A stretch of 33,087 bases of DNA from Candidatus Kapaibacterium sp. (lineage in GTDB: Bacteria; Bacteroidota; Ignavibacteria; Palsa-1295), in contig JADGPZ010000017.1 of assembly GCA_017882165.1 (NCBI GenBank), positions 1 through 33,087 of the forward strand, given 5' to 3'. A model generated the notes under the pieces. The model made no database searches, was not told the DNA's origin, and saw nothing but the letters and a program-made list of their open reading frames with translations. This document shows positions 9,545 through 33,087 of this stretch, piece after piece. The translations under genes were made by a program, and so were the position numbers. Each line of letters starts with the position of its first letter. Position 1 is the first letter of the stretch.

Positions 9545-11623
9545 TTATCGGCTCACGGTCATCTTGCCTTCGGCCTTGACATCGCCCGCTGTCAGCGAGT
9601 AGATGTAGGTGCCATTTGCAAGGTGCGAAGCGTCGAACGGAACAGCGTACCGTCCTGCTTCCTGATTCTGCGCAACCAGCGTCGCCACTTCGCGGCCCAT
9701 CATGTCGCGGACGACAAGCGTCACATAGCGATGGTCGGGCAGCACATAACTGATCGTCGTTGATGCGGCGAGCGGATTCGGATAATTGCCCTGAAGCGTA
9801 ACGCCGCTTGGCGTGCTGGATGGATTCACAGCAGCGCTTCCATCGAAGTAGGCCATGATGCGATTAAGCAGCGTGACGCGATCCGCTTTTGCGACCGTAT
9901 CGACGCTGAACCCAAGCACCACGACTTTGCCGTTACCCAGTTCGGCACGGATGCCGATCGTGTCTCCCTTATTGCTTAAGAAAATAGGCATCGCTGCCGG
10001 ATCGCCCAAACCAAGTTTCGCATACTTTGCCAGACTTCCGGAAAGGGTCGTGTTAAACCCGTTCGAGATCGGATCACCGGCGATGCCGTTGATCGCGGTC
10101 CACTTGGTAGCACCAGCCAATTTGGGTTCAAGCCCAAGATTCGCCTCCATCGACGTGAGGAAGATATCGTTGCCTTGTTGGACATAGGCTTTGTAGTAAT
10201 CATCTTCGATGTTAGTAGCACTCAAGAGAAGTTTACCACCACCTTGAACATATGCACCGACAAAGGTCGTCATGTTATTGGCGTTGTTCAACTGTCCATC
10301 GAGGGGTCCAAGATTGTACAGAATGTGATCGAATTGGCCCCAGCTTAGTGCCAACTGATTGGCATCATATAGCGGTGCTTCCGGCATGGCATCAGCCTTG
10401 TAACCACTCGCAGTCAGATTCGAAGCAATATCGTTCGCCTGAGCGGTATTACCCGAAGCATCAACGACCAGATCCTTCGTGTCTGTGCCAAGTAAACCAG
10501 CTTGCCGAGCCGTGATTCCGACGCCGAACGCATCCATCACGTTGAGCAAGATATCAGCGTATCCAACAGCCGTCGCTCCAGCGGCGCCTGTCAGGCTCAA
10601 GGTCTTGGATCCCGACGGCGCCAGCGTGATTGTTCCATCAGGATCGAGACCAGTTGCCGTGAGATTCCAGCCTGCAGGAATCGCCCCTCCTATCGTAGCC
10701 TTAACCTTTACCGAAGTCGTTTTTGACAAGTTCGTCACCGTCCAATTCGGTGCGGAAGATTGGTCGATCGGGAATGTGAGGAAGTTCTGATCGTCGCCGG
10801 TAACAATAACATCCGGTACGGTCCATGCAGCCTGAAAGACTTCCTTTGTGCCGGCACTCTGGATAAACGCCACCGCCATCATCTGAGAGAGATTCCAAGT
10901 CGAACCAAGCTTCGCAGCGTAATGGTACGTCTTGTTGGTGCCCATCGCTAAAGAAAAAGCCGGATACCGCGCGGTTATGTTGATGGCACCCGTCGCGGCG
11001 AGACCGGGCACGACCTTACGGACGATGCTTGTGTAGAAAGGACGCTTATTCGTCCCGTGATATGGGTTATACTGCTCGGCAAAAACGACCGCGAGTCGAA
11101 GATCGGCGAGCGTGGGTACTGCGTCGATCGCATTTACCGTAACATCCGCAAGGATGCTGTCTGCCGTAATACTCTGAGTAATAGTCATTGTGTACGGTGA
11201 CATGAGTGCATTGACGGAGTCGGCGACAGTTTTCATGTCGGCTGCCGTATTGAAATCAGCTCCGGGATAAGGATTGGAGCCTCGACCACCACAAAAACGT
11301 ACGTACGGCACACTGTTCATGCCGTAATAAGTCTGGAGTCGCGGGTCAATGCCATTGGCCCCTTCGACGCTTTTGGTATAAAGATAGAATGGATCCGCGC
11401 CATCAGGCCAAGACACGTGATACTTCAAAACGCAAATGTTGCTCAAATCTGCGCTTTCAAATTCCTCCACCATCGGATCCGAAGCAGCGCATGGCCCGCA
11501 ACCGGTGTTGGTAAACTCCTCGAAGAGCACGCGGCGCGGATTGCTTCCCTGCGCTTGAACCATGCTGGACGCCGCGACCAGCACGAGAGCGCTTCCGATG
11601 AATAACAGTAGTAGTCGTTTCAT
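9545..11623 (-). CDS. Omp28-like secreted protein with thioredoxin-type CGPC motif and T9SS sorting domain
   Basis: The 692-residue product has a signal peptide (MKRLLLLFIGSALVLVAASS, cleavage near VQAQ), then VLFEEFTNTGCGPC, a thioredoxin-like redox motif with Cys42 and Cys45, as in the Omp28 family of Bacteroidota. The Omp28-like part extends to about residue 275 (VAFIQSAGTKEVFQAAW at 251-267). It is followed by an Ig-like segment, a region resembling the GATase-like domain used in surface proteins (LVVDASGNTAQ, VQGGGKLLLSA, VVVLGFSVDTV), and from about 607 a type A T9SS tail (NYPNPLAASTTISY, MMGREVATLV). It is expected outside the cell or on its surface. The last segments resemble the truncated protein at 31608-32930, a paralogue. 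A -7 box TATATTTG lies upstream at 11729-11736. Confidence 0.85.
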   Translation of the reverse strand: MKRLLLLFIGSALVLVAASSMVQAQGSNPRRVLFEEFTNTGCGPCAASDPMVEEFESADLSNICVLKYHVSWPDGADPFYLYTKSVEGANGIDPRLQTYYGMNSVPYVRFCGGRGSNPYPGADFNTAADMKTVADSVNALMSPYTMTITQSITADSILADVTVNAIDAVPTLADLRLAVVFAEQYNPYHGTNKRPFYTSIVRKVVPGLAATGAINITARYPAFSLAMGTNKTYHYAAKLGSTWNLSQMMAVAFIQSAGTKEVFQAAWTVPDVIVTGDDQNFLTFPIDQSSAPNWTVTNLSKTTSVKVKATIGGAIPAGWNLTATGLDPDGTITLAPSGSKTLSLTGAAGATAVGYADILLNVMDAFGVGITARQAGLLGTDTKDLVVDASGNTAQANDIASNLTASGYKADAMPEAPLYDANQLALSWGQFDHILYNLGPLDGQLNNANNMTTFVGAYVQGGGKLLLSATNIEDDYYKAYVQQGNDIFLTSMEANLGLEPKLAGATKWTAINGIAGDPISNGFNTTLSGSLAKYAKLGLGDPAAMPIFLSNKGDTIGIRAELGNGKVVVLGFSVDTVAKADRVTLLNRIMAYFDGSAAVNPSSTPSGVTLQGNYPNPLAASTTISYVLPDHRYVTLVVRDMMGREVATLVAQNQEAGRYAVPFDASHLANGTYIYSLTAGDVKAEGKMTVSR

Positions 11624-31607: not shown

Positions 31608-32930
31608 CTATTCGATCGTGAGTGGGCGCATGGCCGAGCCTTCTGACGTGTGAATGACACAGAAGTATGTGCCACGAGTCAGATGGCTCGCATCAAAAGA
31701 AGCTGTGTGGTCTCCGATCGACTCAAATCCATCGACGAGCGTCGCGACTTCAGCGCCACGCGCATCGACGATACTGATCCGCACTGTTTCCGAGCGAGAC
31801 AGAGAGTACGGAATCGTTGTCGAAGATGTGAACGGGTTGGGGTAGCTATTGCCAATTGCGAGCGCATTCGATTGCGCGGATGCCACACCGGCCTGAACGC
31901 CGAACCAATTGAGCGCGGCGGTCGTGATTGCCTGACGCGTGTTCGCGGCAAGATTCTGCAAACCAAATGCGAGATACACCAATTTTGCATTGCCATCGTC
32001 CCACCGTATTCCCGCAACCTGCGCTGTCCCGGCACCATAGTAGAATATCGGGATGGCCCCATTCGTGGCAGTAATCTGGTCCGGTTGATTCTGCGCGTCC
32101 ACTCTGGCGGCATTGATATTCACTGTCGGTGCCGCAAACGTATTGCTCACGACATCACCGGAAACTCCATGCACCGTGAATGGTCCCGCGCTATCCTTGA
32201 CGTATGTCGCATGCAGCACAGAAGCAAGCCAGGTCGGGTCCTGATCCGCCGGTGTCGAACTCGGATCGGCGAGCCCATACGCGATCTCACCGCCATGAAC
32301 AAGAAGATGCCCCCCACTCTGCAAGTAAGAGGCAACCGCCGCCTTATTCGCGCCGGTAACGATCCATTTGTTGGCCTCGATAATAATTGTGGGAAACTGT
32401 GCCGCGGACCACGCCGCTGCCGATGCTGCCTCAACGTCCGTGAGCGGTACATAACGGAGCTTCATCGCTGTCAACGTTTTGAGCGGCGTGACCGAGCTTG
32501 CCGAGTCGCCGCTGACATCGACGAAAGCGATCTTCGTACTTGGCGAGATGAATTTTACAACGTAGTTCGTCGTGACGGTATCGCCTCGTCCAGTTATCGT
32601 GGAAACGGCGAGGATGCCAGATGTGTAGGCGCTTGTTCCTGGGGTGATCGAAAGCTGAATGTCGCCAAATTGTGTGTTCACGACAGGAATCGAAGTCGCT
32701 CCCGGCCCGGTCAGTGTCACGCCCCAATCATTGCCAACGATCGACTTGTAGGAAGCTGTAAAGGTCAGGTCTTCGCCGGTGGTGTTATGAACTTGAACGT
32801 CGAGAGTACCGCTCGTGCCAGGAATAACTTGCACGGGCGCCTCTCCTGCTTTTGCTGCGACAGAGAATGTTTGGAGCGTCGATGCCGCCTGCAAAACTTC
32901 CTTTGACTGGTCGCTTTGGACGAAGGCGAC
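31608..32930 (-). CDS. Omp28-like T9SS protein, C-terminal portion only (N-terminal part lost at a junction)
   Basis: About 440 residues remain, from VAFVQSDQSKEVLQAA (which lines up with residues 251-266 of the paralogue at 9545-11623, VAFIQSAGTKEVFQAA) to the stop. Behind it come an Ig-like part (GTLDVQVHNTTGEDLTF), a GATase-like segment (KIAFVDVSGDSASS, YLQSGGHLLVHGG, LVYLAFGLQNLA) and a T9SS sorting tail (NSYPNPFTSSTTIPYSLSRS, ARGAEVATLVDG). It would be exported and surface-bound if complete. Upstream of about 32930 the frame continues without a stop, but the sequence is that of a TRAP permease of another composition, so this is not the native N-terminus; signal peptide and CGPC-containing domain are missing. 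Treat the apparent start at 33011 as an artefact. Confidence 0.8.
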   Translation of the reverse strand, partial: VAFVQSDQSKEVLQAASTLQTFSVAAKAGEAPVQVIPGTSGTLDVQVHNTTGEDLTFTASYKSIVGNDWGVTLTGPGATSIPVVNTQFGDIQLSITPGTSAYTSGILAVSTITGRGDTVTTNYVVKFISPSTKIAFVDVSGDSASSVTPLKTLTAMKLRYVPLTDVEAASAAAWSAAQFPTIIIEANKWIVTGANKAAVASYLQSGGHLLVHGGEIAYGLADPSSTPADQDPTWLASVLHATYVKDSAGPFTVHGVSGDVVSNTFAAPTVNINAARVDAQNQPDQITATNGAIPIFYYGAGTAQVAGIRWDDGNAKLVYLAFGLQNLAANTRQAITTAALNWFGVQAGVASAQSNALAIGNSYPNPFTSSTTIPYSLSRSETVRISIVDARGAEVATLVDGFESIGDHTASFDASHLTRGTYFCVIHTSEGSAMRPLTIE

Positions 32931-33086
32931 TTCGTACATCTTCTTCACGTACTGCCAGCCGCCGACCGCGACGATGAGCGCATAGGCGATGCACAGCGCC
33001 GCCGCGAGCATGGCGACCGCGCGCGCCGGCCCCGGGCGCAGCAGCTTGACCGCGGCGTCGATGCCGATGTGCGCGCCGACCCTGAC
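32931..33086 (-). CDS. dctQ: TRAP transporter small permease (DctQ-like) fragment, foreign to the rest of the window
   Basis: The frame, read on the minus strand from the window edge, gives VRVGAHIGIDAAVKLL, RPGPARAVAMLAAA, LCIAYALIVAVGGW and QYVKKMYE, about 52 residues. The RxGAHIGID motif, basic segment, membrane helix and GxWQYVxKxYE turn are typical of the DctQ (TRAP-T small subunit) family, which brings in C4-dicarboxylates or sialic acid-type substrates using sodium gradients. It is cut at the 5' side by the window edge and at the 3' side at about 32930. GC is about 73 % (32941-33087) against about 53 % in the preceding 60 bases. The likely donor is a high-GC proteobacterium; contig chimerism is the simplest explanation. 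Confidence 0.8.
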
Positions 33087-33087
33087 G

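Follow-up and report, generated by a model that had tools for sequence, protein, structure and literature searches.

A dctQ–omp28 fusion frame at a contig end of a draft genome is very probably an assembly artefact

Does an open reading frame that joins part of a TRAP transporter permease to a secreted surface protein represent a real gene? The window analysed here spans all 33,087 bases of C209, one of the 249 contigs that make up a 3.46-Mb draft genome (G000; 97.2% complete, 0.06% contamination), and carries such a frame at its right end, position 33087 being the end of both window and contig. As the first-pass annotation had described, the frame stays free of stops across the join; it extends on the minus strand from 33086 to 31608 and encodes 492 aa (...GGWQYVKKMYEVAFVQSDQSKEV...). 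A T9SS sorting domain (PF18962 Por_Secre_tail, E 1.6e-9; TIGR04183, E 8.7e-10) forms its C-terminus, and in a profile search its residues 1–52 match the Pfam family DctQ (PF04290) with an E-value of 4.3e-7, above the cut-off.

What is the permease part? Positions 32949–33087 (minus strand) appear to hold a foreign tail, an internal fragment of a Burkholderiales-like gene for the TRAP transporter small permease DctQ. The annotation's naming of DctQ thus stood, but not its placing of the piece at the N-terminus, since the match, of about 52 residues, spans positions 43–89 of the 132 in the profile, that is, its middle. Unlike a full DctQ, the piece breaks off before any DctP or DctM neighbours; a complete DctQ domain in a TRAP gene neighbourhood was not found, the profile being only partly covered where the contig stops at 33087. 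Composition sets the tail apart as well. The GC step that had drawn attention to the join was reproduced, with 0.533 at 32881–32940 versus 0.735 at 32941–33087; the body has a GC content of 0.55, and the highest value of any 147-bp stretch within 1–32930 is not above 0.687. At third codon positions, GC reaches 0.98 in the tail versus 0.60 in the remainder of the fused frame.

The two sides also differ in their relatives, along the taxonomic split that had been predicted: the tail points to Burkholderiales, whose DctQ proteins are the nearest, and the body to the window's own genus (67% identity to the genome G001). The closest relative of the tail, in a Polaromonas MAG, shares 71% aa identity, and with this as its best match the scan of genome contigs returned no near-identical source. 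Searching plasmids with the tail DNA gave no match. G000 has no DctQ match besides the tail, and none was found in any other genome of the family in a comparison of 13 family genomes, as against matches in 5 of 14 control genomes. In total, the foreign stretch would comprise about 140–160 bases (~142).

The remainder of the frame, positions 31608–32930 on the minus strand, constitutes the C-terminal ~440 residues of a native, predicted T9SS-secreted Omp28-like protein. It resembles the intact paralogue of 692 aa at 9545–11623 (minus strand), which the first-pass annotation had already matched to this part and which served us as a comparison sequence (28% identity to the fused frame over residues 232–682). 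An orthologue is intact in four of the six same-genus genomes, in open frames of 668–702 codons, with identities to the native part of 67% in G001 (G001:C3:280713-282038), 59% in G002, 50% in G006 and 45% in G004. A homologous fusion, sought in these same-genus genomes because its existence would have spoken against a misassembly, was not encountered, all four carrying the gene intact without DctQ. When the fused frame was searched in full, alignments to the orthologues began only at residue 47–49 (G001, G004, G006) or 42 (G002); residues 1–41, which are all tail, have no match in any of the four.

Where, then, is the beginning of the native gene? We located its N-terminal third at the left end of another contig of the same genome, C105 (L024), where it reads on the minus strand from a start codon at 890. 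Aligned with residues 1–194 of the G001 orthologue, this part shows 64% identity, and it scored 26.2 bits against the Omp28 domain PF11551 (E 7.9e-6), which is under the family cut-off of 34.9 bits. In G001, a single stretch reads MoxR, Maf, ABC permease, C part and N part of Omp28, PepA and TPR; in G000, the block from MoxR to the C part lies on C209 and that from the N part through PepA to TPR on C105, with the Omp28–PepA–TPR side being conserved also in G002 and G004. This conserved gene order makes the right end of C209 and the left end of C105 neighbours across a small gap of ~100 bp, 102 bp of G001 lying between the aligned parts. The two ends share no direct overlap beyond 11 bases and the native gap is therefore unbridged.

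The left end of C105 carries a tail of its own. Its first ~330 bases encode, on the opposite strand, a TnpA transposase (HTH_Tnp_1, E 2.5e-13), which we take to be IS66-type. Its best matches are Rhizobiales plasmid transposases (~72% nt identity over 163 bases), and at the protein level the best relative covers 98% of the piece with ~54% aa identity. The TnpA at this end (L024:1-330) is thus of alphaproteobacterial type, giving a second apparently chimeric end that faces the right end of C209. With DctQ closest to Burkholderiales and TnpA closest to Rhizobiales plasmid transposases, the two tails look as if they derived from different organisms.

At both joins, a short word can be read as either parent. 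On C209, relatives of the native gene read ..EKMYEVAF.. and DctQ relatives ..YVKKMYDVGI..; DctQ homology extends to residue 52 (..YVKKMY[DE]V), and the two homologies coincide over ~18 bases at 32931–32948 (minus strand). The join, earlier put near 32930, is accordingly close by, but better described as the range of about 32931–32948 in which both parents are readable. On C105, native ..FMNPMRTMMP.. stands on one strand and TnpA ..EIEINGIIVRIG on the other, with homology to the native gene reaching base 309 and that to TnpA reaching base 330, hence an overlap of ~22 bases (309–330). Together with ~20 nt at the right end of a further contig, C6, the either-parent ranges come to ~18 nt (C209), ~22 nt (C105) and ~20 nt; the lengths were estimated by comparison with relatives of either parent, as no search returned the exact parents (the best matches share 71% aa for DctQ and ~54% aa for TnpA). 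A given 20-mer is expected to match by chance about 0.002 times per 1e9 distinct bases. At any one site, a chance word of 20 bases would be rare, yet a deep metagenome assembly has so many dead ends that such words become plausible.

How widespread are such ends in this genome? Among 62 usable contig ends of G000 that we surveyed, at least three appear chimeric (C209 right, C105 left and C6 right), plus one candidate (C12 left). At the right end of C6 (L100), the last ~320 bases encode an S8 subtilase (PF00082, E 8.2e-12) that runs head-on into an IgGFc-binding gene, and the closest same-genome and same-genus relatives of the latter stop aligning near residue 233–235 of 251; with an overlap of ~20 bases at this join, the end proved to be a third apparent chimera. 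The left end of C12 (L080:1-~200) has a C-terminal piece of GFO_IDH_MocA in frame with an unrelated frame and a GC change from 0.66 to 0.47. For the frame on its native side, no relative was found in the genus, and we treat this end as a candidate only. In a composition test, which set contig ends against interior pseudo-ends under a third-order Markov model, four ends exceeded the 99th percentile (C6 right and the left ends of C105, C104 and C203) and C209 right lay just at it. On reading, C104 left resembled an ordinary respiratory iron-sulfur gene region and C203 left (L109:3-899) showed a long frame with an AAA_25 ATPase, and neither was retained as a chimera; because these two were flagged yet read otherwise, composition alone is not specific. 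The GC-rich C203 left end with its AAA_25 frame could be a mobile element.

What could have produced the fusion? We consider it very probable that it is an assembly artefact, a foreign fragment joined to a broken contig end, the reading that the first-pass annotation had favoured and that is now supported by intact orthologues, the split halves of the gene with their synteny, the absence of DctQ from the family and the short common words of ~18–22 nt at three ends. The Omp28-like gene would have been broken by a short gap, probably one in coverage, leaving its N-terminal third on C105 and its C-terminal two thirds on C209. At each dead end, the assembler may then have continued into an unrelated organism via a word of ~20 bases shared by chance, adding foreign tails of ~140–330 bases, that on C209 being the middle of the Burkholderiales-like dctQ gene. 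A short-read assembler of the de Bruijn or iterative-k kind might make such joins in its small-k step where coverage is low. While sequence comparison demonstrates that the gene is split, that the contigs are adjacent, that their foreign tails differ and that both parents overlap at each join, three joins with the same ~20-base signature would fit a small-k graph join best. A chimeric sequencing template followed by the assembler, from a library ligation or as a PCR chimera, would be an artefact as well and would likewise join unrelated organisms at low-coverage contig ends. Ligation, however, needs no shared word, yet one of this length stands at each of the three joins tested; a chimera from template switching in PCR could have such a word. 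On balance, we regard a chimeric template as unlikely.

Could the fusion instead be biology? That the same native gene is flanked by both tails, one of them a transposase gene, recalls a real mobile element, with IS66 on one side and a dctQ-bearing cargo on the other, that inserted into the Omp28-like gene and at whose borders the assembly broke; such an insertion might in principle account for a pair of joins within a single gene. Neither border, however, is an element end: one join falls midway along dctQ and the other close to the C-terminal end of tnpA, and over ~20 bases at each the native gene can be read as well. Borders with a target duplication were not seen at the C209 and C105 joins; rather, the native sequence lacks ~100 bp, whereas transposition would duplicate a few bases. 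Moreover, the same overlap pattern recurs at an unrelated end, C6 right, and DctQ was found nowhere else in the genome and nowhere in the rest of the family. The borders, the loss in place of a duplication and the recurrence at C6 right render an insertion very improbable, and equally so the existence of the proteobacterial element with IS66 and TRAP-transporter cargo that it would call for. We give even less credence to a genuine in-frame fusion gene, born of illegitimate recombination with the DNA of a beta-proteobacterium. The frame is indeed open across the join, but an in-frame reading is to be expected where both parents share codons over a word of ~18 bases. Relatives lack the fusion, a tail of ~142 bases that stops at the contig end bears no sign of a working gene, and above all the gene's own N-terminal part exists on C105, in the right syntenic place.

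An assembly misjoin would have precedents. Chimeric scaffolds composed of two organisms have been described as rare in metagenome-assembled genomes and are recognised by read support (paired reads), coverage or phylogenetic profile (Chen et al. 2020, PMC7111523). The present case resembles them in the differing phylogenetic profiles on either side of the join and differs from such rare scaffolds in that short tails at contig ends are concerned, three among the 62 ends surveyed, with a fourth as candidate. The terminal contamination screen FCS-GX ignores prokaryote-in-prokaryote chimeras below 10 kb (PMC10898089), and because of this limit tails of 140–330 bases would go unreported. The locus offers no new biology; it is an example of a data-quality problem and matters only as a warning, in that this genome, at 97% completeness and 0.06% contamination, still has apparently foreign tails at three or more of its contig ends, so small that at least one common contamination screen passes over them. 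Such tails can form open frames with native genes and could be annotated as fusion proteins or taken for horizontal transfer.

Two further contig features of this genome were noted in passing. The first 2,500 bases of C108 (L128) read as N, being either withheld or masked. The left ends of C6 (L074:1-549) and C191 (L107:1-549) are 95.6% identical over their first 549 bases, where the terminal part of a T9SS sorting-domain-like protein is encoded; this likeness may reflect either a recent duplication or a strain variant at which assembly came to a halt.
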